64,000 bases of DNA from Haliscomenobacter hydrossis DSM 1100 (GTDB taxonomy: Bacteria; Bacteroidota; Bacteroidia; Chitinophagales; Saprospiraceae): assembly GCF_000212735.1 (NCBI RefSeq), contig NC_015510.1:6511001-6575000 (forward strand), in the 5' to 3' direction. Below the pieces are notes generated by a model that was given only the letters and a program-made list of their open reading frames with translations, ran no database searches and was not told the origin of the DNA. How positions within the stretch are numbered: the first letter of the stretch is position 1; each line of letters opens with the position of its first letter. Of this stretch, positions 3,709 to 47,114 are shown piece by piece. The translations under genes were made by a program, and so were the position numbers.

Positions 3709-3801
3709 GGGTTCGGGAGTTCGTAGTTCGAGGGTTCAACCGGGCACCTCGACTCCGCTCGGCGACCGGTTGAACCCTCGAACTACGAACCCTCGAACCC
3801 T
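3709..3801. repeat. Inverted repeat with iterated GTTCGnn arms
   Basis: The left arm repeats GTTCGGGA, GTTCGTA, GTTCGAGG, GTTCAACC; the right arm returns with GAACCCTC, GAACTAC, GAACCCTC, GAACCCT. The loop of about 25 bases carries CTCGACTCCGCTCGG, a motif I recognise as a REP-like core common in unrelated bacteria. The right arm ends 4 bases before the stop codon of the YkuK-like gene (3806), so it sits in that gene's 3' untranslated region and upstream of the M16 operon. The arm units match those of the repeat at 6755-6826. Confidence 0.85.
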
Positions 3802-3805
3802 ATAT

Positions 3806-4276
3806 TTACGCTACTTTATCCGCGCAGCTAGAGCTCGCAAAGGCATCCGGTTTTGCTTTGAATTCAAAACCCATCGACACAATGTAGCCCATGGCCTCTT
3901 TCAGTGCCACATTGGATTCAAAGTGTGGATCGGTGTTGATGTCTGCGTGTACTTCCAGTTCCACGTCGTATTTGTCCAGTAAGTCACAAAGGGCATAAGC
4001 TACCTCGATGGATTTGGACACTTCAAAAATCATCCGCTCGCGCAAACTCATGCGCCGCGTTTCACGGCTGTTTTGAATGTACATGAAACCGCCTTTTTTT
4101 TCCCGCAGGAAAACAATGACCGTTGCATATTCTACGGTGCCGCCACGTACCTGGGAATCAGAGCCAATGCACACTTTGAGTTTGTGCCCCAGCTCTTTCT
4201 CCCGAATGATCGTTTTTTCAACTGCGTCTTTAATCGGAAGATCGATTCGTTGACCATCAAATTTACGCCAACTCAT
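3806..4276 (-). CDS. YkuK/DUF458-type RNase H-like protein
   Basis: The gene encodes 156 residues from the ATG at 4276 (MSWRKFDGQRIDLPI). Characteristic segments are VCIGSDSQV near residue 35, YATVIVFLREKKGG, a helix with SLRERMIFEVSKSIEVA, and LEVHADINTDP with conserved acidic residues. This is the pattern of the DUF458/YkuK family, predicted to have a ribonuclease H-like fold; acidic residues in GSDSQ and HADIN would be the metal-site candidates. No signal peptide is present. It is transcribed alone, divergent from the next gene and followed by a long inverted repeat. The cellular role is unknown. Confidence 0.8.
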   Translation of the reverse strand: MSWRKFDGQRIDLPIKDAVEKTIIREKELGHKLKVCIGSDSQVRGGTVEYATVIVFLREKKGGFMYIQNSRETRRMSLRERMIFEVSKSIEVAYALCDLLDKYDVELEVHADINTDPHFESNVALKEAMGYIVSMGFEFKAKPDAFASSSCADKVA

Positions 4277-4499: not shown

Positions 4500-4940
4500 A
4501 TGGAATCGCATTTATTTGTATATGGAACCCTGATGATCGGGGTAGAGTCCAGAATGGCCGGATTGCTGCAACGCAACAGCAAATGGCTGGGTTCGGCCTG
4601 TATTCCCGGTTTGCTTTACGATCTGGGGCGCTATCCCGGGGCTCAGTGGATTCCCGAGCATCCTCAAAAGGTATATGGGCAGATTTTTTTATTGCATGAT
4701 CCCGAATTTTTGCTCGTACATTTAGATGAATATGAAGGAATTGATCCTCAGTTTCCCGACGCAGGAGAGTATGTACGCAAGTTGATTCCCGCGTTTTTGG
4801 AAGATGAAAACCGGATGGTCAATACCTGGTTTTACCATTTCAATCAACCTTCCAAAAAATTAAAACTGATTGAATCTGGGCGCTATTTGGATTATTATCC
4901 GCAGAAGCCGGCGCATCTGGATTTTATTCGGACGGGGTAA
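4500..4940 (+). CDS. Gamma-glutamylcyclotransferase-like (AIG2/GGCT fold) protein
   Basis: A 146-residue cytoplasmic protein beginning [18 protein letters not shown] is the substrate-loop signature of the gamma-glutamylcyclotransferase superfamily, and the glutamate in LDEYEGID is the expected catalytic acid. Such enzymes release 5-oxoproline from gamma-glutamyl compounds or gamma-glutamylamines. Length and motif spacing are typical. The gene is monocistronic, running away from the YkuK-like gene, and is followed by a long inverted repeat at 4961-5041. The exact substrate is undetermined. Confidence 0.88.
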
Positions 4941-6833: not shown

Positions 6834-9800
6834 TTAGAATGTAAAATTGAAGTTTACTCCGTAACGCTTGGTGGTCGGGGTATCAAAATCAGAACTCGAT
6901 TGACGGCCGATGTAGCGATCCAAATCAACGTCTTTCTTCTCAGCGAAATACAAGAGGTTGCGCGCAACCAGTGACACAGTCATTTGGTTGAAGAAGCTCT
7001 TCGACTTCAGAGGCACCTTGTAAGTAAGGGTGATTTCGCGCAACTTGGCAAAAGAACGGCTCATCAAATTGTTTTCATCGTCCTGATAGTAACGGCTGAT
7101 CCAGTCCTGCAGGAAGGTTTTGGTATCATTTGGTTTAAACACCAATTCATTGTAGTTGGTGATGTTGCCATAATCATCCGTTTTAATGGTGCCACTCACC
7201 AGTTGCACACCCTCGCCTACCCAGGTACGGTTGCCTTTGGTATCTTCCAAACGGGCGATGCCCATGGCACCTTCGGTGGTTTCAATGTGACGACCACCGC
7301 GGAAAGTTTGGCGCTGGATGTAGTTGGCAATGACACCACCGACCCGACCATCAAACTGGAACTGTAGCGTCCAGTTTTTTACACTGAAGCGGTTGATGAA
7401 ACTCCACACGAAATCGGGATCCATGTGTCCCAACAATTTGCGAGCATTACCATTTACGGAAGCCAAACGGATCGGACGTCCACCTGCATCGTTGATGATT
7501 TGACCATCCTGGGTAAAGAGATAGCCCACGGAGTTGATTTCATCTACCCGGTCTCCAATTTGTCTCCAGGGATCCAATTGGGTCAATTCATTGCCGTTTT
7601 CGTCGGTATAAAATTTCACCCAACGTTCACGCAGGGTTGAAAAGTTGACCATTGGGTTCCATCTCAAGCCACTTTTGTTTTTGAATGGATCGGCGCTCAG
7701 GGTAATTTCTACCCCTTTGCGGCGCGTAACGATGCCATTCACCTGTTGGGCAGTATAACCAGAAGTTTCAGAAATTGGACGGGCAAAAATCAGTGGCCCT
7801 TCTTTCACATTGAAGTAGGTAAACTCAACATTCACCATGTTTTTGAAGAGGCCGATGTCAGCACCCAATTCAAATTCCTCACGAGAGTTCCGGTCCAGGG
7901 CAGCATTGCTCAGGGTATTGGTGTAATAAGCGGCGGGTGCGTTGTTGTAGCCCAATGGTGTAGAATAGGGTTCGGCATTGGCATAACTTGGCCCATTGTA
8001 CACAGAGCTGTAATTCTCGCCATAACCCAAAACCGAGGCACCCGCAGCGCCAATGGTTGCTTGAGTCAAGCCGTCTTTCACATTGGCGTAGGCACCGCGT
8101 AGTTTCAACAAAGAAATGGGGCCCAACTTGACGTACTCGGTTACAATGGAGTTAAAACCAAGCGATGGGTAAAAGAAAGTTTGGTTTTCCGTAGGCAGCG
8201 TAGAAATGCGGTCAACCCGGCCAGTGTGGCTCAAAGTCAGATACTTGTTCAAGGTCACGTCGGCAGAATAGTACCCGGAAGTAACCAGCATATTGGCGTT
8301 ATACCCAAATGCGCGTACGGGGTTGGCAGAGTTGGCAAAGTTGTATACTCCGGGTGTAATCAGGTAATCGGTAGAAGCATAGTTGGTGGTGTATTTGAAG
8401 GTACGTACGGCGCCACCGCCTAAAACATTCACCCGAATTTTGTTGAATGTTCTGCTAAAATCCAGCATCACATCGGTGTTGTTTTCAAACAAAGAACGAC
8501 GGTCTTCACGGTAATCACCACGGCGTTCGTCACGGCCATAAGCACCAGCAGAGTAAGGCATTTTTTCGGTGCGCAGCAGGTCGTAAGTGTTCACCCCGTT
8601 GCGGGCAATCAACTTCAGGTCGGGCGTGATTTTGTAGGACAAAGACAAGTACCCGTAAGTATTGTTGTTGTAATGGCCACGCAACCAGTGGTTGGCCATG
8701 AACCAAGGGTTGTTGTAACGCTGGTACTCGGCATAAATTTGCTGAACACCTTCTTTACCCGGCTGCCAGATTTGTTTCATGTCGTCAACGTCCCAGTCTG
8801 CACCTGCCCAGGTGGTGATGTTGTAAATCAGGGAGTTTGGGCCGTAGTTGGCGTCGGGAATGTTGTCGGTGTATTGGCGGTTGTAGTTGATGTTGGCTTC
8901 AAAACGCAGACGGTCGGTGAAGTTGTAACCGATGTTGGCGTTGAAGTTGGTGATGTTCAGGTTCGTGTTCGGAACGATACCAGTCTGGTTCATGTGCCCC
9001 AATGAAAAACGCAAATCAGAGCGGTCGGTAGAACTGGAAACCGCTACACTGTTGTTGAACAAAAATCCGGGGCGTAGGAAACGTTCCAGGTTGTCCTTAC
9101 CCCGAGGAATCCAGGGCGTAGGGATCAGTTTGCCTGTAGCAGGATCAACTGGGCTGTCGTATTGAGGCAACAAACGGCCATCGAGGGGAGGTCCCCATAC
9201 ATCGTAGTCGTTGTCGTTTTTACCCCCCCCTTTGCCATCGACAAATTCGTAAATACCGTGGTCGCCAGGGCCGTATTCGTCCTGAGTTGTTGGCAAGGAA
9301 TTAAATCCATTTTCCATCATGGAGGAAGAGTTGAACTCTACGGAAAAGCCACGAGGGTTTTTGGAGCCTTTTTTGCTGGTGATCAAAATCGCTCCGTTGC
9401 GGCCACGGAAACCGTAAATGGCGGAAGCAGTAGCACCTTTTAAGACCGTATAGTGTTCAACGTCGTCAGTATTGATGTTCCAGGTATCCGAGTTGATGGG
9501 CACCCCATCTACGACATACAAAATGTCGCCGCTACCGCGCAGCACTACGTTTGGACGGCGCAACATTTCGCTGTTTAAACCGATCGTCAAACCAGCAATT
9601 TTCCCTACCAAACCCGCAATGTTGTTGGGTTCGCGGGCTTTGATCAATTCGGATGATTTTACGGCTTGTTGTGAGGAAGTCAAAAAACGTCTTTCTTTCG
9701 TTACACCCAAACCCGTAACCATTACTTCAGAAAGCCCAATGACATCGGCTTCTAAAGTGAGGCTTAAGTTAGTCTGATTGGTAACATCCACTTCGGTGGT

Positions 9801-10067
9801 AGGATAGCCTGTGTAGGATACGATCAAGGTGTTTTCTCCGTCTCCAAGTACCAGGCTGAATTTTCCGTCGACATCTGTCACGGTACCGCGTACAGTGTTT
9901 TTTACCGTTACGGAAGCGCCAATGAGTACTTCATCCGTTTTGGCGTCGCTGATGGTTCCGTTGAGTGTACGCTGGGCATTGGCTTGCAGGGAGAGCAGTA
10001 AGCCAAATAGCAGACAAAAGCTGCGCAAAGCCAACAATAGGCCTTGCTTGGGTAAACTTAATTTCAT
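6834..10067 (-). CDS. SusC/RagA-family TonB-linked outer-membrane protein
   Basis: A 1077-residue receptor. A signal peptide (MKLSLPKQGLLLALRS... ending QANAQ) precedes a carboxypeptidase-regulatory-like domain (about 33-115, with GASVTVKNTVRGTVTDVDGK), a TonB box/plug region (VMVTGLGVTKERR, then VLRGSGDILYVVDGVPIN and VEHYTVLKGATASAIYG) and a beta-barrel reaching the terminal aromatic FNFTF. Together with the downstream SusD-like lipoprotein it should import a nutrient across the outer membrane using TonB energy. The upstream 427-base non-coding leader holds two hairpins and may carry its control. No hydrolase, sigma or anti-sigma gene flanks the pair, so the substrate stays open. Confidence 0.95.
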   Translation of the reverse strand: MKLSLPKQGLLLALRSFCLLFGLLLSLQANAQRTLNGTISDAKTDEVLIGASVTVKNTVRGTVTDVDGKFSLVLGDGENTLIVSYTGYPTTEVDVTNQTNLSLTLEADVIGLSEVMVTGLGVTKERRFLTSSQQAVKSSELIKAREPNNIAGLVGKIAGLTIGLNSEMLRRPNVVLRGSGDILYVVDGVPINSDTWNINTDDVEHYTVLKGATASAIYGFRGRNGAILITSKKGSKNPRGFSVEFNSSSMMENGFNSLPTTQDEYGPGDHGIYEFVDGKGGGKNDNDYDVWGPPLDGRLLPQYDSPVDPATGKLIPTPWIPRGKDNLERFLRPGFLFNNSVAVSSSTDRSDLRFSLGHMNQTGIVPNTNLNITNFNANIGYNFTDRLRFEANINYNRQYTDNIPDANYGPNSLIYNITTWAGADWDVDDMKQIWQPGKEGVQQIYAEYQRYNNPWFMANHWLRGHYNNNTYGYLSLSYKITPDLKLIARNGVNTYDLLRTEKMPYSAGAYGRDERRGDYREDRRSLFENNTDVMLDFSRTFNKIRVNVLGGGAVRTFKYTTNYASTDYLITPGVYNFANSANPVRAFGYNANMLVTSGYYSADVTLNKYLTLSHTGRVDRISTLPTENQTFFYPSLGFNSIVTEYVKLGPISLLKLRGAYANVKDGLTQATIGAAGASVLGYGENYSSVYNGPSYANAEPYSTPLGYNNAPAAYYTNTLSNAALDRNSREEFELGADIGLFKNMVNVEFTYFNVKEGPLIFARPISETSGYTAQQVNGIVTRRKGVEITLSADPFKNKSGLRWNPMVNFSTLRERWVKFYTDENGNELTQLDPWRQIGDRVDEINSVGYLFTQDGQIINDAGGRPIRLASVNGNARKLLGHMDPDFVWSFINRFSVKNWTLQFQFDGRVGGVIANYIQRQTFRGGRHIETTEGAMGIARLEDTKGNRTWVGEGVQLVSGTIKTDDYGNITNYNELVFKPNDTKTFLQDWISRYYQDDENNLMSRSFAKLREITLTYKVPLKSKSFFNQMTVSLVARNLLYFAEKKDVDLDRYIGRQSSSDFDTPTTKRYGVNFNFTF

Positions 10068-25674: not shown

Positions 25675-25730
25675 GTGAGTTATGAGTTATGAGTGCATTC
25701 ATAACTCATAACTCATAACTTATAACTTAT
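25675..25730. repeat. Heptamer inverted repeat (GTTATGA units) between convergent genes
   Basis: A perfect 16-bp stem (25677-25692 with 25699-25714) is made of two GTTATGA heptamers per arm around a 6-base loop; the right side continues with two degenerate copies to 25730. It starts at the crotonase stop codon and its right side runs over the HPF stop codon (25720-25722) and last codons. Confidence 0.85.
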
Positions 25731-26157: not shown

Positions 26158-27369
26158 ATGAAAAAGAACCTTACACTTTTCTTCCTCTTCCTTGGATTAG
26201 GATTACAGGCGCAAAATTTGAGTGGGTTTTGGGTAGGCACGGTCATGCAGAACGGTCGCCCCAATGTATTCTCCTATCAATTGGATTTGCAACAAGAAGG
26301 AACAACCCTTACGGGCAAAGCAGTTTCGATCACTCAGGATGGATCAGCCACCGCCGAATTTTCTATAGCAGGCACCTGGGAAGGAGGTGGGCAACTGATT
26401 TTGCAGGAACTTGTTCAGGTTACACCAAAAGGAGGGGGCTGGTGCCTCAAATATGCCAGCTTGCGCTTGGGTACCACCGGAGACGGGGTTTGGGTGTTGC
26501 AAGGCGGCTGGCTGGCCGACAATTGCTCGCCGGGTACCATGCGCCTGGTCAAAGAATCAGATGCCAATCAACTGGATGTTGGGGAAGACGTTTTTGTGCC
26601 AGAGGGGATCTGGACGGGGCATCTTTCCCAAGCTGACCGCGCTTACGAGTTTTATTACGAGCTCAACCTGCAACCCGAAGGAAAAGGATTTGCCAAAATC
26701 ATGTCCGAAGAAAATGGCGGTAGTGCCCGTCATCTCCTGACCTGGAAACTCAATGAGAATCGAGATTCTTTACTTGTAGAAGAACAGGGCGTTTTGGAAA
26801 AAACGGATCCCAATTGGCGTTGGTGCATCAAAAAGCTCAGCTTTGGCCTCGATGAGGATTTTAACCGCTTTGGCTATACGGGTACCTGGGCAGGCAGAAT
26901 TGATGCAACCGAAACCCAAAAAGCAGGAGCTTGTGCGCCAGGAAAGGTGTATGTAGAAAAACCCATTCTCAATAAAGATGTGAAGGCCAATATCCGTAGC
27001 TTACAAACTCAAACGGGCCTGGGGACTCCAGGCCGCAAACTGAAACTGCAACGCAGCATTCAGGTGAGTTCTCCTGAATTGACCATCAGTGTATGGGATA
27101 ACGGTACCGAAGACGGGGATGTAATCACCATGTTTTTTAATGGACATCAATTGGCCAAACAACACCGCATTTCCAAGAATAAATCCAACTACCGGGTCAA
27201 ACTCAGCAGTACCGAAAACTTCTTAATCCTGCAAGCTGATGACCTCGGCTCCATCAAACCCAATACCGTAGCCGTATCCATCAACGATGGGCTCCGCGAA
27301 CAAGTCCTGGTCATGAGCGCCGACTTTGAGGAGAATGGCGCGGTGCTGATTCGGAGAATAGAAAAGTGA
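26158..27369 (+). CDS. Secreted protein with internally duplicated domain, unknown function
   Basis: The start at 26158 (MKKNLTLFFLFLGLGLQAQ) gives a clean signal peptide; an in-frame ATG at 26152 adds two residues. Two similar modules follow: LSGFWVGTVMQNG... to about residue 130 and PEGIWTGHLSQAD... from about 145 to 270, each with a W-x-G start, a YxLxLQxEG strand, an interior tryptophan-cysteine (GGWCLKY / RWCIKKL) and a late cysteine. Residues about 300-403 form a different beta domain with DGDVITMFFNGHQLA and LGSIKPNTVAVSINDG, found at the C-terminus of many exported Bacteroidota proteins. The last codons (E, K, stop) are part of the heptamer array that follows. No catalytic motif is apparent. 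Confidence 0.78.
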   Translation: MKKNLTLFFLFLGLGLQAQNLSGFWVGTVMQNGRPNVFSYQLDLQQEGTTLTGKAVSITQDGSATAEFSIAGTWEGGGQLILQELVQVTPKGGGWCLKYASLRLGTTGDGVWVLQGGWLADNCSPGTMRLVKESDANQLDVGEDVFVPEGIWTGHLSQADRAYEFYYELNLQPEGKGFAKIMSEENGGSARHLLTWKLNENRDSLLVEEQGVLEKTDPNWRWCIKKLSFGLDEDFNRFGYTGTWAGRIDATETQKAGACAPGKVYVEKPILNKDVKANIRSLQTQTGLGTPGRKLKLQRSIQVSSPELTISVWDNGTEDGDVITMFFNGHQLAKQHRISKNKSNYRVKLSSTENFLILQADDLGSIKPNTVAVSINDGLREQVLVMSADFEENGAVLIRRIEK

Positions 27370-27543
27370 AAAGTGAAAAGTGAAAAGTGAAAAGTGAAAA
27401 GCGAAAAGCGAAAAGCGAAAAGCGAAAAGCGAAAAGCGAAAAGCGAAAAGCGAAAAGTGAAAAGTGAAAAGTATTTTCAAGCCTGATCAGAAAGCATGAA
27501 TTGTGTGTTGCTATTCACTTTTCACTTTTCACTTTTCACTTTA
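27361..27543. repeat. GAAAAGY heptamer array with inverted arm, spanning two stop codons
   Basis: The left arm is 16 uninterrupted heptamers (27361-27472): five GAAAAGT, eight GAAAAGC, three GAAAAGT. After a 42-base spacer, four heptamers return in inverted orientation (27515-27543). The stop codon of the upstream gene (TGA, 27367-27369) is formed by the first repeats, and the stop of the convergent MFS gene (27541-27543) overlaps the last, so the array fills the whole convergent gap. Confidence 0.92.
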
Positions 27544-31435: not shown

Positions 31436-32290
31436 ATGAAAATCAAATTCGAAGACATTCGACCCGATTCGGATAGTTCTTTTCGAATTTTGCTGACACC
31501 TCGTCTCCACAACACCTTTCTGTGGCATTACCACCCGGAATACGAACTGGTGTACATCGAAGGAGCCAATGGTACGCGGCACATCGGCGACCACATCTCG
31601 CGTTATGAAGGCAGTGATCTCGTGTTCATTGGCCCGAATGTTCCCCATCTGAACTTTGACTATGGGGTACAAACCGAGCACCACAAAGTTGTGGCACAAC
31701 TTAAAGCAGATTTTTTGGGCAAAGACTTTTTTCAAGCTCCTGAAATGAAAGATGTTCGGAATCTGTTTGAGCAGGCTAGAGAAGGGGTATCGTTTTTTGG
31801 CGAAACCAAAAAGGAAATCGGTGCGCGGCTGAAAGTGTTGACGACCCATCATCATTTCCGGCAATTGCTGGAATTATTGGATATTTTCCAAACCCTGGCC
31901 GAAAGTCGGGAAACCCAGGCCCTGGGCGCTAAACCGCTCCAGAATGAACACAAATTTGCTGATCAACAGCGCTTGCAACGCATCTACCATTTTGTAGAAC
32001 AACACTACCGGGACAGGATAAACATGGAAGAGGTCATTGCCTTGTCCAACTTGTCCAATGCTGCATTTTGTCGCTATTTCAAACGGATGACGGGCATGAC
32101 TTTTACCACGTTTTTGAGCCAATACCGCATCAACCAGGCGAAACGCTTGTTGTTACAGCATTGCAATGTTTCGGAGGCATGTTTTGAAAGCGGGTTCGAA
32201 AACTTATCCCATTTCAACAAGACTTTCAAAAAGATAACGGGGGAGAATCCCAAGGATTTTCGGAGAAGGCATCTACAACAAGTCTATTAA
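31436..32290 (+). CDS. AraC-family transcriptional regulator
   Basis: The 284-residue protein starts at the ATG at 31436 (MKIKFEDIRPDSDSS); an 8-codon extension begins with TTG and is not needed. Residues about 20-90 form a cupin-like sensor (FLWHYHPEYELVYIEGANG, FIGPNVPHL). The C-terminal 100 residues are an AraC double helix-turn-helix: INMEEVIALSNLSNAAFCRY, FKRMTGMTFTTFL, CFESGFENLSHFNKTFKK. It lies back-to-back with the dioxygenase-AKR-Dabb-MFS operon and is its likely regulator, with a sugar as probable effector. Its last 18 bases overlap the end of the convergent Uma2 gene. Confidence 0.92.
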   Translation: MKIKFEDIRPDSDSSFRILLTPRLHNTFLWHYHPEYELVYIEGANGTRHIGDHISRYEGSDLVFIGPNVPHLNFDYGVQTEHHKVVAQLKADFLGKDFFQAPEMKDVRNLFEQAREGVSFFGETKKEIGARLKVLTTHHHFRQLLELLDIFQTLAESRETQALGAKPLQNEHKFADQQRLQRIYHFVEQHYRDRINMEEVIALSNLSNAAFCRYFKRMTGMTFTTFLSQYRINQAKRLLLQHCNVSEACFESGFENLSHFNKTFKKITGENPKDFRRRHLQQVY

Positions 32291-33244
32291 ATATGCTTTG
32301 AGTTCCTCCAGACTTAAACCCAAAATTGAAGCAATTTCTGTATTCGGCAGTCCCATGGATTGAAAAGCTTTAATGGAGTTTTTGACCCTTGATTGTTCCT
32401 GTTCTGCTTTTTGGCGTTCTTGTTCTGCTTTTTGGCGTTCTTGTTCTGCTTTTTGGCGTTCTTGTTCTGCTTTTTGGCGTTCTTGCTCTGCTTTTTGTGA
32501 AGCTTCTTGTGCTCTTTGAAGTGCATCGGCAACTTGCACCAGACCTGCTTCGTATTGCCGCTGAATTTGCTGCTTCTCGCTTTTGATTTCCACGAGTTTT
32601 TGTTGTTCTTGTTTCAACAACTGCCGACTTTCACTGAGTGCTTCAATGGCCTGATCATGAAATTCCACCAATTCAAGATAAGATAAAAAAGGCTCGCCAT
32701 TGGGTTTGGACAAGAGTAAAGTTTCAGTCGTCCACTCAAATTTCACTTGCAGTAGGGGACTAACCCATACATCCTGATAAGCATGTGGATAGAGTTGATC
32801 GTGATGACGGGTATAGATTTCCAATTTATTGTGATCAGGATCATATACATAGTACTCAAGTGCGCCGTAATTGGCATAAAACTTGAGTTTTTTGGCCATT
32901 TCTGCACGGGTATTGCCCGGGGATAAAATTTCAAAAATCACCTGTGGGGCAATATTGTCCTCTAAAAATTGAATGTAAGATCCCCGGTGACCCTTGGGGC
33001 GTCCCAGTGCTACCATCACATCGGGCGCAACCCTGATGCCGCCATTGCCTTCTACTGGATACCAAAATAAATCAGCGGCGATGAACACATCGGGCTGTTG
33101 AACAAAGCAAGCTTCCAAGTTTAGCTTGATCAATGCAATCCATTCGAACTGTAAAGTGTTTTCCGCCATGGGTTTTCCATCGGATTCTGGATAAATTTTG
33201 CGCAATTCTTCAGCCGAAAGGGTGTGCATTGGATAGGTTTTCAT
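32273..33244 (-). CDS. Uma2-family (DUF820) nuclease-fold protein with heptad coiled-coil tail
   Basis: The start at 33244 (MKTYPMHTLSAEELRKIYP) gives 323 residues. Residues about 25-190 are the Uma2/DUF820 PD-(D/E)xK-like domain: FWYPVEGNGGIRVAPDVMVA supplies the first acid, PQVIFEILSPGNT the Glu, and KKLKFYANYG the Lys; YYVYDPDHNKLEIY follows. Residues about 200-290 form a coiled coil ending in tandem QKAEQER heptads. The last 35 residues resemble a small helix-turn-helix (LPNTEIASILGLSLEELKAY). Uma2 proteins are frequent in multicellular bacteria and have no settled function. Confidence 0.85.
   Translation of the reverse strand: MKTYPMHTLSAEELRKIYPESDGKPMAENTLQFEWIALIKLNLEACFVQQPDVFIAADLFWYPVEGNGGIRVAPDVMVALGRPKGHRGSYIQFLEDNIAPQVIFEILSPGNTRAEMAKKLKFYANYGALEYYVYDPDHNKLEIYTRHHDQLYPHAYQDVWVSPLLQVKFEWTTETLLLSKPNGEPFLSYLELVEFHDQAIEALSESRQLLKQEQQKLVEIKSEKQQIQRQYEAGLVQVADALQRAQEASQKAEQERQKAEQERQKAEQERQKAEQERQKAEQEQSRVKNSIKAFQSMGLPNTEIASILGLSLEELKAYLIDLL
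32401..32484. repeat. Four exact 21-bp tandem repeats inside the Uma2 gene
   Basis: Four identical 21-base units (32401-32421, 32422-32442, 32443-32463, 32464-32484) encode successive QKAEQER heptads, with degenerate copies on both sides. A unit length that is a multiple of three keeps frame when copies are gained or lost. Confidence 0.95.
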
Positions 33245-36150: not shown

Positions 36151-36227
36151 CACCACAGATTCCACAGATTTTCACAGATTTTATGGATATGACAAAAAAT
36201 CTGTGAAAATCTGTGGAATCCGTGGTG
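36151..36227. repeat. Inverted repeat of CACAGATT units, second copy
   Basis: Arms 36151-36182 and 36196-36227 are complementary over 32 bases with one mismatch. Unit wording (CCACAGATT, CACAGATTTT) is that of the element at 4961-5041, but the order of units differs, so the two are related by unit type and not by copying of the full sequence. Confidence 0.88.
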
Positions 36228-42064: not shown

Positions 42065-42141
42065 TAGCTATGAGCAATCAGCAATCAGCTAGGTTTTGCC
42101 CTAGCTCCTAGCTAATTGCTCATAGCTCACTGCTGATAGCT
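42065..42141. repeat. Heptamer inverted repeat (AGCnATn units) between convergent genes
   Basis: The left arm reads AGCTATG, AGCAATC, AGCAATC, AGCTAGG in strict 7-base period; the right arm returns with complementary heptamers (CTAGCTA, ATTGCTC, ATAGCTC, ACTGCTG, ATAGCT). It starts 5 bases after the nuclease stop codon and reaches the stop codon of the DUF5689 gene at 42141. Confidence 0.85.
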
Positions 42142-44054
42142 TACTTCGTCACCTTCACATTATCCAACCTAAACGTCGTCGTATTATTCGTTTTATCCCC
42201 CTTGTGCTGGAAACCAATATAAACCGTTCCACTATACCCGCTCACATCAATTGCTCCCGACTGCACCCACTCGTAATTGGGATCCGTCGACGCAGGCATT
42301 TTGAAGCTCAATTTTTTCCAGGTCGCCTTGTCGATGTTGGTGCCATCGAAGTCATTGGAAATGTATACCGTCAGGCCATCGTGCTTGTAAAAAGCCTGAG
42401 CGCTTTCAAAGCTCAGCGTTTTGGCATCTTCCGCTTTGATGCCCGGGGTAATCAGCCACATTTCATTTTCCGTATCTGTGCTTTGGAAAGCGGTCGCTTC
42501 CGCAAAGAAATTACCGGAGAAGGATTTGGTTTGCCAGGTACGGGCACCCGTTACGGCTTTATTGACCCAGCCCGTTGCTTTGACTGCCGTGTTGACGGTG
42601 CCCCCCGCGAAGGACTCGTCCAAGAGGTTGTTGGGGTTGGCCACACCGCTGCCCGTTACGGCCACATCGTTCAAATTGCGCAGGATCAACTGGGCGGTAT
42701 TGAATTGGGAAACCACCGCGACCAAATCCAACGTTTTGCCCGTTGGCAATGCCGAACCGGAAAACGTAGCCTGGCTGCGCGTAAACACCACCACTTGTCC
42801 GGTTGAATCCGTCAATGTTTTGGAGCCACTGTACGTACCCGATGCGCTGAAACTGCCTTTTACCACTTTGACCAAAGTCGATTCCCACTTGTCCAGGTTG
42901 GCGATGATTTGTGCCGCGCTGGCTACCCTTGGCGTGGGCAAGGTGCCAGTACCCACCGATTTGGCCAAACCATTGTCGATGCTATTGATTTGCAAAAGGC
43001 CGTTGAACTCGGAAAGTTCCTGGCCAGACACGGTCACTTCAATTTCCTGGCCCAGGTTGAAGGCATGGTCATTTTTGAAACGCACCACCACGCCCGCGTC
43101 ACCTTGTTGGATGACCACGTTGCGCGGATCGGTATTGACGGCACTTTTATCCGAAATCACCACCCCTTTGATTTTGCGGTCAGCAGGAATGCTCAAGGTC
43201 GTACCTTTGTGCAGGGCGCGCAGATCGGCAATACTGATGAGCTGGCCAGTGCCCGCCGTTGGCCCCGCGCCAGCACAACGAACCCCCGTCATGGCGGCAT
43301 CGCTCGGGTCGCGGATGATCAATTGTTTGGTGGCCCCAAAAACGGTATAGATGGCCGTCAGAGATCCCTTTTTGCCCGGCGTTTTGTCCTTGGCAAAATC
43401 GGCATAGCCACTGCTGCGCACGATGATGACCCCGCCGTTGCAATCCTGCAAGCTGCGGTTTACTGAAAACAACCTCACGGCATCGGCCCAGGTTTGGTTG
43501 GTATCGGCTGGAGCAAACTCCACGTTTTCGAGTTTGATCAGGGTGTTGACGTGGGTGGCATTCAAATCTTTGATGCCCAAAACTTTTGGCGTCACGGGCT
43601 GGTCTTTGGCCGTTACCAATACGTGTTGAGGAATGAGCAGGTCTTCGATGGCATCGGTTACGCTGCCATTCAATTGGTGTACGCCATTGTAATCGCCAAT
43701 GTAAAGGTTTTTACATTTCACGGCTACTTTGGAGCCTACCGGGAAGGTATTGTACAAACCACTGGCGTTCATGCGCACCGAAATCCCTCCGGTGGCGTCC
43801 TGAATCACGATGTTTTCAAAAAAGTTACCCGAGCGGTCGTCGGCCACCACAATACCTTCAATGATGATGTCCTCCGTGATTTTGGAAGCCGTGGCACCGA
43901 GGATGTGTTTCTTCTTGAGCACGTCGATGGTGGTATTGCCCGTCAACTGGGGGAGATCCGTAACCGGTGGCTCGTCAAACATTTGATCCACACAACTCAC
44001 CATGCCAATGGCCAGCAGGGCGGTCAGGGCTATCAGGAACGAAAACTTTTTCAT
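42141..44054 (-). CDS. DUF5689-type surface lipoprotein
   Basis: A 637-residue lipoprotein: MKKFSFLIALTALLAIGMVSC places the lipid Cys at 21, followed by VDQMFDEPP. Residues about 30-270 are DUF5689-like with an OB-fold flavour (EDIIIEGIVVADDRSGNFFE, GGISVRMNASGLYNTFPVG); a second OB-like unit follows (about 280-480, VVIQQGDAGVVVRF, GQEIEVTVSGQELSEFNG). The C-terminal 150 residues look like a choice-of-anchor/jelly-roll domain (EMWLITPGIKAEDAKTLSFE, GTVYIGFQHKGDK). It is downstream of the TonB receptor, replacing SusD in position. A role in binding nucleic acid or its fragments is inferred from neighbours. Confidence 0.88.
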   Translation of the reverse strand: MKKFSFLIALTALLAIGMVSCVDQMFDEPPVTDLPQLTGNTTIDVLKKKHILGATASKITEDIIIEGIVVADDRSGNFFENIVIQDATGGISVRMNASGLYNTFPVGSKVAVKCKNLYIGDYNGVHQLNGSVTDAIEDLLIPQHVLVTAKDQPVTPKVLGIKDLNATHVNTLIKLENVEFAPADTNQTWADAVRLFSVNRSLQDCNGGVIIVRSSGYADFAKDKTPGKKGSLTAIYTVFGATKQLIIRDPSDAAMTGVRCAGAGPTAGTGQLISIADLRALHKGTTLSIPADRKIKGVVISDKSAVNTDPRNVVIQQGDAGVVVRFKNDHAFNLGQEIEVTVSGQELSEFNGLLQINSIDNGLAKSVGTGTLPTPRVASAAQIIANLDKWESTLVKVVKGSFSASGTYSGSKTLTDSTGQVVVFTRSQATFSGSALPTGKTLDLVAVVSQFNTAQLILRNLNDVAVTGSGVANPNNLLDESFAGGTVNTAVKATGWVNKAVTGARTWQTKSFSGNFFAEATAFQSTDTENEMWLITPGIKAEDAKTLSFESAQAFYKHDGLTVYISNDFDGTNIDKATWKKLSFKMPASTDPNYEWVQSGAIDVSGYSGTVYIGFQHKGDKTNNTTTFRLDNVKVTK

Positions 44055-44087: not shown

Positions 44088-44179
44088 GAGTTGAGAAGGT
44101 TGAGAAGGTTGAGGCTACCGCGAGCGTCATTGTCAAAGTCGCTCGCGGTAGCCTCAACCTCCCTCAACCTTCTCAACTT
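44088..44179. repeat. Inverted repeat with 53-base core, copy 1
   Basis: The core 44108-44160 has a perfect 19-bp stem (GTTGAGGCTACCGCGAGCG and complement) and 13-base loop; outside it are iterated GTTGAGAAG units and their inversions. It lies between the TonB receptor stop (44182) and the start of the DUF5689 gene. The core is identical to 47046-47098. Confidence 0.93.
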
Positions 44180-44181
44180 TA

Positions 44182-47004
44182 TCAGAGGCGCAAGGCTAAA
44201 CTCACAAAGTAGTTGCGGCCATAGCTGTAGAAATAGTTACTCGGAAAACGGTTGACATCTTTGCCTCCATAATCGAAGCGGTACTGTTCAAAACCACCCG
44301 TGATGAAGTCTTTTTTGTCCAGGATATTGTTCACCCCTACGTTGAGGTACAAGTAGATGTCGCGGATTTTCCAGGATTTTCCCCCAAACAAGTCCAGGGT
44401 GTACGCTGCTGGCGCTTTCTCCTGTTCGATGATGGTTTTCCACAGCGGTGAACCGGGTTCAACCACCTGATTCGAAAACTCTGGCGTGGCCACATACGCT
44501 ACCGCTGTCACCGTACGGCGATCGGGGTTGAAATCCAGGTAAATGTCATCGAAGTAGTTGAAGTTGATGTTGGCAAACCAGAACTTCGGCGAGTTGTAGC
44601 TGACGCCAATCGTGCCCGCCGTTTGGGGCATATTGGGCACGTAGAAGTTTTTGATGTACGCTACATCTTCGCGCAGTTTGGAGGCCAAGTTGTCCAGGTA
44701 TACGCCAATGGTGGGGCGGGAGGTGTAAATGTATTGGCCCGCTGCCAGGGCCGTGCTGGCTTTCCAACCCGGTGAAAAGGCCCATTCCAGGCCAAATTCG
44801 ATCCCGGCGTGCTGGGTATTGATGCCTGACATGGTATAGTTGACAAAACCACCCGAGGCGGTACCATCATCTTCGATCAGGGCATTGTCCAGGTAAAAGT
44901 TGTTGATGCGGTTCTGGTTTTTGATTTGGGTGTAATACCCGACCAAGCGCCCTTTGAGGTAAGGAGAACGGAGCAAATAACCACCCTCGATACTCGTGAT
45001 GTTTTCGGTGCTCAAACCCGGCAACACCTGATCACGCGTCCGCGGCGACACGTATGCGTTGCGCACCTGCGGGGCTTGTACCATGTAAGCCGCGTTGAGC
45101 ATGAAGTAATTGCGGCCATCGGCTTTGAAGGTCAAGCCAGCTTTTCCTGCCCATTCCAAAAAGCTTTGTTTGGGCGCATCACCTCCTGAGTTCTCTGGAA
45201 ACTTGCCATTGGTCACATTGCCCCTGCGCCAGAAGGTCGTATTGCCTACGGAACCACTCACAAACAGGTCGAACTTGGGCAAATAAAATTCCATTTGCGC
45301 CCAGGAATTGTAGCGGCGGTGTTCGTTGGTGTAGTCCCAACCAAATTGGTCGCCTTTTTTCAGGATGCGGTTGGGGGTGTTGATGTCGTTTTGGATAAAA
45401 GAGCCACCTCCCGTGGTGTCAATGAACTCGGCGAACTTGTCGATGTCGAGGTAAAAGTCGCCACCGAGTAGATCGTTGATGGTCTTGAAATTGTGGTTGC
45501 TTTGCTGTTGGTAGCTGACCCCACCGGAAACTTTGGCCAGATCGCTGATGGAGCTTTCAATATTGGAATTGAAAGACAAAAGGCTGCGGTCAAAGCGGCG
45601 CTCTTCGATTACGTACTGAGAGCGTTTGCCCGTCACGGAGTTGCCAGGGATGCCGTTGGCATTGTTGACAGTCAGGGTATTGGCGCGGTTTACGTTGTAC
45701 AAGTAATTCCAGTCGATTTGGCGCAGGGATTCATTTTCGCGTAGCAGTTTTTCGACTTCCACGGCCTGATCACTCTCGATGTAGCTGGGCAAACGGCGGT
45801 AGTAGTTCGGGCGTGGGTCGCGGGCTTCGTACCAATCCAGGGCTGTGGTGCCGTTGCGTCCGGTTTGGTAACCGATGGCGGTGGTCAGGCGGGTTTTTTC
45901 CTGGATTTGCCAGTCATGGCGCAATACGGCCAGGGGCTGGTGGGTGTTTTGCACCCGGGCGTTGCGTTTTTCCCCGTTTTGGTAGCCCCAAAAAGAGTTG
46001 TAATAATTGCTGCCCGCGAGGTCATACATTTCTTTGGTGGCAGGGGCACTACGCCCTCTTTGAACCGGCGAACCCAGGGCGGTAAAGCTCAGGAAATGAT
46101 TGTCGTTCAACTTTTTTTCCACCCCAATAAAATAGGCATTGGCGTCGTAAAAAGTACCGTCGATGTACCCTTCTTGCGCCCAACGGCGGGAGGCCGATAC
46201 CGTAAAAGCCCAGCCGCTGGCGGTTAAGCCCGTGCTGTAAGTAGCCATCACCCGATTGCGGTAAGCGCGATTGGATGCCGCGTAGGAAACGCGCAATTGT
46301 GGGCGGTGATGCGAAGCCCGGACATCCAGTGCCGTGATGCCACCCAGCCCACCAAACCCGTTGGCATTGGGGGCCAAACCCACGGAGGCAGTGCGGCTGC
46401 GCACCACGTCGTTGAGGCCACTCCAGAGGTTCCAACCCGGGAAACCGGTTTCCACGTCGTTGATGGGAATGCCGTTAAAAAACAGTTCGTTGTGTTGGCC
46501 ATCGTAACCGCGCATGCGGAAGTTGGTGAAGCTGAACTGGAAGGAGGCGGCGCTGACAAAAACGTCGTTGGAAGCCGTCAACAAACCGGATACATTTTGA
46601 TCGCCGTCGCTGTCCAGGTCGTTTTCGCTGAGCGTAACCACGGGTACAAATTCTTCGGCGGAGAGGGCATCGCGGCCTTCACGCGATTCCAGTTTGAGGG
46701 TGCCGAGGTTGACGCGATTGCGGCCCTGTGGCTCTACGGTCACCTGTTTTTCCTGAAAACCGGATTTAAAGATGGTGATGACCAATTGGGTAGATTGGCC
46801 AATGTTGGCTTTAAAATCCACAAACCCCTCATCATTGCTGAAAAAGGTCAGGGTAGGGAGGCGGATTTCCACGCCGGAGAGTCCTTTGCCCGTTTGTGCA
46901 TCCAGAATTTGTCCGTTGACTTGTACTTCTTGAGCGAAGGCTCCGAGTGGGAAGAACAACAGCAGTAACAAGCGGATGAAACCACGCTTGGTCGCTTTGT
47001 GCAT
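44182..47004 (-). CDS. TonB-dependent receptor paired with the DUF5689 lipoprotein
   Basis: A 940-residue outer-membrane receptor: signal peptide ending GAFAQ, a carboxypeptidase-regulatory-like domain (about 27-110, GQILDAQTGKGLSGVEIRL), a plug with NFRMRGYDGQHNELFFNGIP and a barrel finishing NYFVSLALRL. It is shorter than SusC proteins and its plug lacks the SusC signature, fitting the group that partners DUF5689 proteins. Flanked by nuclease and EEP genes, it probably imports nucleic-acid fragments or phosphorylated products. It is bracketed by two copies of the same inverted-repeat core. Confidence 0.92.
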   Translation of the reverse strand: MHKATKRGFIRLLLLLFFPLGAFAQEVQVNGQILDAQTGKGLSGVEIRLPTLTFFSNDEGFVDFKANIGQSTQLVITIFKSGFQEKQVTVEPQGRNRVNLGTLKLESREGRDALSAEEFVPVVTLSENDLDSDGDQNVSGLLTASNDVFVSAASFQFSFTNFRMRGYDGQHNELFFNGIPINDVETGFPGWNLWSGLNDVVRSRTASVGLAPNANGFGGLGGITALDVRASHHRPQLRVSYAASNRAYRNRVMATYSTGLTASGWAFTVSASRRWAQEGYIDGTFYDANAYFIGVEKKLNDNHFLSFTALGSPVQRGRSAPATKEMYDLAGSNYYNSFWGYQNGEKRNARVQNTHQPLAVLRHDWQIQEKTRLTTAIGYQTGRNGTTALDWYEARDPRPNYYRRLPSYIESDQAVEVEKLLRENESLRQIDWNYLYNVNRANTLTVNNANGIPGNSVTGKRSQYVIEERRFDRSLLSFNSNIESSISDLAKVSGGVSYQQQSNHNFKTINDLLGGDFYLDIDKFAEFIDTTGGGSFIQNDINTPNRILKKGDQFGWDYTNEHRRYNSWAQMEFYLPKFDLFVSGSVGNTTFWRRGNVTNGKFPENSGGDAPKQSFLEWAGKAGLTFKADGRNYFMLNAAYMVQAPQVRNAYVSPRTRDQVLPGLSTENITSIEGGYLLRSPYLKGRLVGYYTQIKNQNRINNFYLDNALIEDDGTASGGFVNYTMSGINTQHAGIEFGLEWAFSPGWKASTALAAGQYIYTSRPTIGVYLDNLASKLREDVAYIKNFYVPNMPQTAGTIGVSYNSPKFWFANINFNYFDDIYLDFNPDRRTVTAVAYVATPEFSNQVVEPGSPLWKTIIEQEKAPAAYTLDLFGGKSWKIRDIYLYLNVGVNNILDKKDFITGGFEQYRFDYGGKDVNRFPSNYFYSYGRNYFVSLALRL

Positions 47005-47019
47005 GTGAGTGTATTTTTA

Positions 47020-47114
47020 GTTGAGGAGTTGAGGAAGTTGAGAAAGTTGAGGCTACCGCGAGCGTCATTGTCAAAGTCGCTCGCGGTAGCCTCAACCTTC
47101 TCAACTTCTCAACT
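47020..47114. repeat. Inverted repeat with the same 53-base core, copy 2
   Basis: The core 47046-47098 is base-for-base the same as 44108-44160. Flanking units differ slightly (GTTGAGGA, GTTGAGGAA, GTTGAGAAA on the left). It lies in the leader of the TonB receptor gene, between its start codon and the candidate promoter at 47172. Confidence 0.93.

Follow-up and report, generated by a model that had tools for sequence, protein, structure and literature searches.

Iterated hairpins at gene ends in Haliscomenobacter hydrossis as candidate miniature mobile elements associated with S23 and GxxExxY genes

Heptamer repeats, intervening sequences of rRNA genes and long hairpins at gene ends have each been puzzling for decades, and they have been treated separately. 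The STRRs of filamentous cyanobacteria are direct repeats and are not known to have a gene linked to them. In Xanthomonas, GGGAATC heptamers form 70-75 convergent inverted pairs per genome, most of them near or over stop codons, so that paired inverted heptamers at such positions have already been described (PMC4692102). TAACTGA heptamers are known from Beggiatoaceae, Cyanobacteria and Bacteroidetes (PMC4679880). The intervening sequence (IVS) in the 23S rRNA of Coxiella burnetii combines an S23 open reading frame with a terminal inverted repeat of 28 bp and at most three GACAGAT heptamers, and an old proposal that such sequences were once mobile is cited in the same study (PMC4990558). REP/REPIN palindromes are linked to the RAYT (TnpA-REP) gene (PMC3116915, PMC8266576, PMC3733652).

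In this study, the window (the whole 64-kb stretch of DNA analysed) comprised positions 6511001-6575000 of the 8,371,686-base chromosome of H. hydrossis (whole genome 8,771,651 bases). Nine intergenic loci with two inverted arms of iterated short units had been predicted there, and all nine were found, with folding z-scores of -4.8 to -17.3 relative to dinucleotide shuffles and none of 200 shuffles equal to any locus. Seven loci (3709, 4961, 6755, 25675, 27361, 42065, and 44088) have a stop codon at most 20 nt away or overlap one. At 36151 two stops are at 53-58 nt, and 47020 is the exception because it lies between two start codons. The loci belong to two element classes, S23 (class S) and GxxExxY (class G):

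3709..3802, no strand, class S; unit GTTCGnnG with a GC-rich inner hairpin; stop codon of gene 3806-4276 (-) 3 nt away; cognate gene S23 L103
4958..5044, no strand, class G; unit CACAGATNN in a perfect 36-bp stem; 17 nt past the stop of the 4500-4940 (+) gene; cognate gene GxxExxY L091
6755..6826, no strand, class S; unit GTTCGnnG; stop codon of gene 6834-10067 (-) 7 nt away
25675..25724, no strand, class S; unit GTTATGA; occupies the whole gap between two stop codons
27361..27543, no strand, class S; unit GAAAAGY/GTGAAAA; overlaps both flanking stop codons; cognate gene S23 L105
36148..36230, no strand, class G; unit CACAGATTTT; between a convergent gene pair
42065..42143, no strand, class S; unit AGCNATN / CAGCTAT; between two stop codons; cognate gene S23 L101
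44088..44180, no strand, class S; unit GTTGAGAAG, core GGCTACCGCGAGCG; stop codon of gene 44182-47004 (-) 1 nt away; cognate gene S23 L102
47019..47117, no strand, class S; unit GTTGAGAAG and core GGCTACCGCGAGCG as at 44088; between two start codons

At 27361-27543, GAAAAGY is present in about 16 copies in the left arm and its complement in four copies in the right arm. No Rfam matches were found in the 64-kb window, and the elements sit between protein genes, outside 23S rRNA helices. A terminator scan (GC stem plus T-run) that covered five of the window loci listed only 25676-25715; terminator-like sites overall numbered 22 vs. 29 in shuffles, hence not above shuffles. Two repeats of other kinds were observed in the window. 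A dispersed sequence some 165 bases long (17175-17340), the inverted ends of which are GCCATTTTTGCCTGAA-like, has 11 matches in 1.2 Mb of the own genome and many in all four sister genomes, and a 21-base unit is repeated in tandem (4.9 copies, 97%) at 32395-32497, within the coding region 32273-33244.

Three 400-kb stretches (1.2 Mb) of the same chromosome were scanned for inverted repeats with a score of at least 18. The scan yielded 193, as against none in composition-preserving shuffles, and 105 of them have periodic arms (period 5-12); the original observation was right and larger than claimed. Contrary to what had been supposed, the units are not specific to single loci: 135 of the 193 repeats could be assigned to about 18 dispersed families (66 class S and 69 class G, the family patterns and class labels having been set after inspection of the data), which extrapolates to about 480 class S and 500 class G elements per genome. 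Within the window, GTTCG is common to 3709 and 6755, CACAGAT to 4961 and 36151, and GTTGAG with the core GGCTACCGCGAGCG to 44088 and 47020. Searches with the window DNA of 3709, 4961, 36151, 44088, and 47020 revealed tens of copies in the own genome, many with 86-98% identity, and GTTGAG copies in sister genomes as well. Class S units are 7-10 bases long (e.g., GTTGAGAAG, GTTCGGGG, GTGAAAA, CAGCTAT, and GACGAAT) and class G units 8-10 bases (e.g., CACAGATTT, ACACAAAGG, and CACGACGA); the families with a period of seven are GTGAAAA, GACGAAT, CAGCNNT, and GTNATGA, and the remaining ones have periods of 8-10. Arms and inner cores are modular to some extent: cores of the GCTACCGC type were found with several unit families. 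Within a copy, the arms mostly resemble each other more closely than the family average; the own arm was the best match in only 48 of 119 loci, a comparison that is biased because the loci were chosen for complementary arms. A fixed palindromic target (AAAGCGACA) around class G elements was considered and rejected, with only four candidate pairs in 1.2 Mb.

Stop-codon abutment is a property of the S23 class only. A facing stop was found within 25 nt of class S elements in 54 of 60 cases, at a median distance of 4 nt (genes were called with our own simple model, the errors of which hardly shift stop positions), and in codirectional gene pairs the upstream stop was nearer than the downstream start in 37 of 43 (p=4e-6). 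For class G the median distance is 48 nt, and the stop was nearer in 25 of 41 cases (p=0.38).

Units resembling these were expected near GxxExxY and S23 genes; both gene families were therefore searched, with Y1 transposases as a comparison. Inverted arrays of iterated units enclose each of the eight S23 (PF05635) genes of the genome and each of its six full-length GxxExxY (PF13366) genes, L094 being the weakest case; three more PF13366 matches, short and located in proteins of about 540 aa, were left out of this count. By comparison, when 204 short genes were taken at random from the genome, only four had a flanking inverted-repeat score of at least 18. The array units are as follows:

S23 arrays: L100 GTTGAA; L101 CAGCTAT; L102 GTTGAG; L103 GTTCG; L104 GTTGAT; L105 GTGAAAA; L106 GTGTGGGTG; L107 GACGAAT
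GxxExxY arrays: L091 CACAGAT; L092 CGCGGAGT; L093 CACGACG; L094 ACACAAAGG; L095 AACGGAT; L096 CACAAAGGCGC variant

At L094, with the gene placed on the + strand, both arms are upstream of it, with a complete iterated hairpin adjoining one side and no matching array within 400 bases on the other. The arrays of 12 of the 14 S23 and GxxExxY genes match a dispersed family; those of L096 and L106 had no match in the dispersed-family list. Most families have a gene-carrying member here or in a close relative. No cognate gene was found in the own genome for the GTTATGA, GAAAAAT, CTTAGGTG, and GTTTTAA families; candidates were present in sister genomes for GTTATGA and GAAAAAT only, and L354 (G004), with GTGATGA arrays, is the candidate partner of the GTTATGA family of 25675. 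The seven Y1/RAYT (PF01797) genes are flanked by plain REP-like inverted palindromes with the same periodicity as the control (p=0.42). RAYT was ruled out as the mobiliser, since its flanks carry other, non-iterated palindromes.

The S23 and GxxExxY proteins match TIGR02436 and TIGR04256. S23 is a four-helix-bundle protein without a recognised catalytic domain, and its solved relatives include 2rld and 2gsc, the latter being XCC0516 of Xanthomonas campestris. A search of the PDB gave no sequence-detectable solved relative of GxxExxY; residues E28, D68, E78, and K80 are invariant in all six proteins, in the intact PD-(D/E)XK-like D...ExK pattern of a putative nuclease. An S23 gene with GTGTGGGTG arrays was observed between two tRNA-like flanks in four Haliscomenobacter species (L106, L352, L357, and L360).

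The association extends across phyla. Among 296 sampled Bacteroidota genomes, 220 contain S23 and 150 contain GxxExxY at the curated cut-off; those with neither gene include G011, G045, G049, G076, G092, G138, G234, and G242, and G061 and G265 have S23 only. A named set of 80 S23 loci, obtained with four S23 proteins as query, was drawn from Bacteroidota, Planctomycetota, Verrucomicrobiota, Acidobacteriota, Cyanobacteria, Nitrospirae, Methylococcales, and others. Symmetry between upstream and downstream flanks was compared with that of control flanks moved 650 bases outwards, the threshold being the 95% level of the control; shifted controls replaced permuted flanks because the permuted null was inflated by shared units. 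Symmetry of S23 flanks exceeded the threshold in 62 of 74 named GTDB loci (p=1e-21), 28 of 30 Bacteroidota loci and 24 of 25 loci of the cyanobacterial group, that is, in 84-96% across sets, and symmetry of GxxExxY flanks in 27 of 30 (90%). At Y1 genes symmetry was raised, but periodicity was not. The best Bacteroidota loci carried heptad-octad arrays at S23 genes and (A)CACAGAG, CGCAAAG, or CACAGATT-like arrays at GxxExxY genes, and the S23 flanks of the cyanobacterial group consisted of heptamers, including GCTGAGT, GGGAACA, and GGTTTCA, which are STRR-like in look.

Orthologous sites were compared with four further species of the genus (G001-G004; the own genome is G000), in a survey that is small because the sister contigs are short. 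This comparison, which had been suggested as a check, spoke against an origin in place: copies are present, absent or replaced at one site. The gene end at 27369 carries GTGAAAA in the own genome, CTTAGGTG in G003 and G004, ACACAAAG in G001, and GTTGAA in G002, i.e., four families in five species. Likewise, GTTCG at 3709 corresponds to GTTGAG in G001 and G003 and to GTTGAA in G004, and CAGCTAT at 42065 to GTGAAAA in G003. Site 4961 is empty in G003 and G004, and the element at 47020 is present in G001 and absent from the same two species. The element at 44088 was found in all genomes compared (own, G001, G003, and G004), with spacers changed in both arms. Short plain hairpins follow the gene at 36151 in G001, G003, and G004, and short unrelated GTAGAGACGC...GCGTCTCTAC hairpins, apparently another dispersed palindrome, occupy site 6755 in three sisters (L186, L187, and L188). 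No clear target-site duplication was found; the empty sites of 47020 (TTTTTAACTATTA / TTTTTTTAACTTTTA) permit at most 2-3 bases. At G000:C1:785538-785623 a CAGCTAT element is nested within the arms of a GTTGAG element, and G003 has the GTTGAG element alone; for general insertion at hairpin tips, this one nested case (785538) was insufficient.

Gene and unit vary together within the genus: S23 protein similarity covaries with flanking-unit similarity (Mantel r=0.30, p=0.003, in a set that takes in two same-locus ortholog pairs). Three S23 genes of G002, 87-97% identical, are flanked by TTAATGG arrays at three unrelated loci, and GTGAAAA-flanked S23 genes, 79-92% identical, were found at different loci in G000, G003, and G004. 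S23 is under strong purifying selection, with dN/dS of 0.06-0.11 and synonymous changes far in excess of non-synonymous ones. At what is apparently one locus (L105, L351, and L356), the S23 gene is kept in three species with upstream arrays of GTGAAAA vs. ATGAAAA units, and the ATTTTTC unit is retained in the downstream arm.

We consider it likely that the iterated hairpins are miniature mobile elements of a REP/RAYT-like kind, the cognate gene being S23 or GxxExxY, and we infer their transposition. Intervening sequences of rRNA and STRR heptamers would then be special cases. The data suggest that S23 and GxxExxY genes spread the hairpins through the genome. As in the REP/REPIN and RAYT system, dispersed, intergenic, gene-less palindromes are combined with a single gene flanked by the same palindromes (PMC3116915, PMC8266576, PMC3733652); unlike in that system, the gene is S23 or GxxExxY rather than a Y1 HUH transposase, and the arms are iterated 7-10 base units. 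With the intervening sequences the elements share an S23 gene enclosed by terminal inverted repeats that can pair into a long stem (8/8 in the own genome, 84-96% elsewhere) and, as in Coxiella burnetii, where GACAGAT precedes the open reading frame of a suspected former mobile element (PMC4990558), tandem heptamers. The intervening sequences, however, lie in 23S rRNA helices and are excised by RNase III, whereas the present elements lie between protein genes, in multi-copy families with most copies gene-less. Like STRRs, the families with a period of seven are intergenic tandem heptamers, and in the cyanobacterial group heptamers of this sort flank the S23 genes; a link between STRRs and S23 was not found in the open-access literature searched. 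The Xanthomonas GGGAATC repeats are likewise heptamer arrays in inverted pairs at stops, but they are read as G-quadruplex repeats, and the accessible part of the report proposes no cognate gene (PMC4692102). TAACTGA repeats resemble the elements in being intergenic, iterated heptamers, sporadic across phyla and suspected of horizontal spread, and differ in that nearly all are direct, lie near start codons and are read as regulatory sites (PMC4679880). MITEs are similarly short, gene-less, dispersed, and palindromic, with presence or absence at orthologous sites (as for 4961 and 47020, empty in G003 and G004); here, in contrast, no DDE transposase and no clear target duplication were found.

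It had been proposed that a common process, template switching or slippage at terminator hairpins, makes each structure in place and gives shared form without shared sequence. The arms of one copy are indeed usually closer to each other than to the family average, both arms were altered together between species at 44088, and slippage clearly changes copy number (16 vs. 4 units at 27361). The likeness of arms is, however, subject to the bias of locus choice, with the own arm best in only 48/119, units and cores recur at tens of places, and the empty sites of 47020 in sisters contain no precursor hairpin. The supposed lack of shared sequence is contradicted by the approximately 18 families and by the matching S23 and GxxExxY arrays (12/14 gene-carrying arrays match a dispersed family). 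Given the families and their cognate genes, independent generation at terminators is very unlikely, and we reject it as the origin; template switching may still serve in the upkeep of arms within a copy. Alternatively, S23 and GxxExxY could be passengers or late arrivals that insert into or ride on arrays spread by unlinked machinery. The partial modularity of arms and cores (GCTACCGC cores with several unit families) and the CAGCTAT element sitting within a GTTGAG element would fit this, but gene subfamily and unit covary, the same gene recurs with the same unit at several loci, S23 is under strong purifying selection and the gene-array pairing holds in distant phyla, so that we regard such a role as unlikely.

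Another possibility is that the hairpins are immobile and that selection has shaped them simply to terminate transcription or to stabilise 3' UTRs. Class S lies at stop codons, its hairpins are very stable, and plain hairpins occupy the same gene ends in sisters (36151 and 6755); furthermore, compared with control repeats, heptamer repeats that form G-quadruplexes in Xanthomonas more often coincide with the start or stop of a transcript (PMC4692102). Still, few seem to have the T-run signature (25676-25715 only, among the five window loci scanned), and the families, the cognate genes, the empty sites and a class G without stop preference are left unexplained, which makes a purely terminator-based account improbable. 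A terminator role is compatible with mobile elements as a secondary use, and the transcript ends in Xanthomonas therefore mean that class S elements may act as terminators where they have landed. Finally, S23 and GxxExxY could regulate mRNA ends, the hairpins being conserved targets of a dispersed regulon and spread by selection. That the gene carries the same hairpin as the dispersed copies and is under purifying selection agrees with this; turnover between sisters is nevertheless fast (a single gene end carries four families among five species), and occupancy is not conserved at most compared sites, so a regulon of this kind seems improbable.

If the hairpins are mobile elements, the protein would recognise the folded DNA or RNA of its own iterated hairpin, the copying of which to new sites it would promote, as is thought for RAYT with REPs. 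Class S may persist or land by stop codons because a hairpin there would terminate or shield the upstream transcript, in a manner that can be likened to the survival of intervening sequences in rRNA hairpin loops. Slippage would then alter unit number, and template switching or replacement would keep the arms alike. Among S23-related proteins, the Avd proteins of diversity-generating retroelements have a known role (the 4DWL-2GSC similarity is cited in PMC10053308), and by this similarity S23 may bind nucleic acid, perhaps with a borrowed polymerase or nuclease. The nuclease-like motif of GxxExxY suggests possible cutting at folded palindromes.

In our judgement, it is an even chance that S23 and GxxExxY define two new classes of miniature mobile elements across many phyla, with iterated 7-10 base hairpins as ends, that rRNA intervening sequences and cyanobacterial STRRs belong to the S23 class or derive from it as remnants, and that both protein families are new mobility factors. 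In the open-access literature, no link of S23 or GxxExxY to dispersed repeats was found, and an earlier description may exist. A CRISPR survey names the 23S rRNA IVP in the legend to one of its figures, which deals with CRISPR-associated proteins (PMC10910872); this could possibly be explained by S23-linked repeats. If one gene family makes and moves heptamer repeats, intervening sequences and gene-end hairpins alike, the question of where they come from can be put to the test. A function would also be gained for two large protein families of obscure role, and selfish elements, not design, would account for some of the structure at the 3' ends of genes.

S23 elements were also observed inside a conserved gene, at the same place (GEPDI / GVDVFHP), in one Pseudanabaena, one Methylococcales and apparently one Bacteroidota genome (L338:1400-3100, L342:1400-3100, and L241). 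We take the host gene to encode a DNA methyltransferase. In the Pseudanabaena and Methylococcales cases, the host frame is open across the whole element, and S23 lies in another frame.
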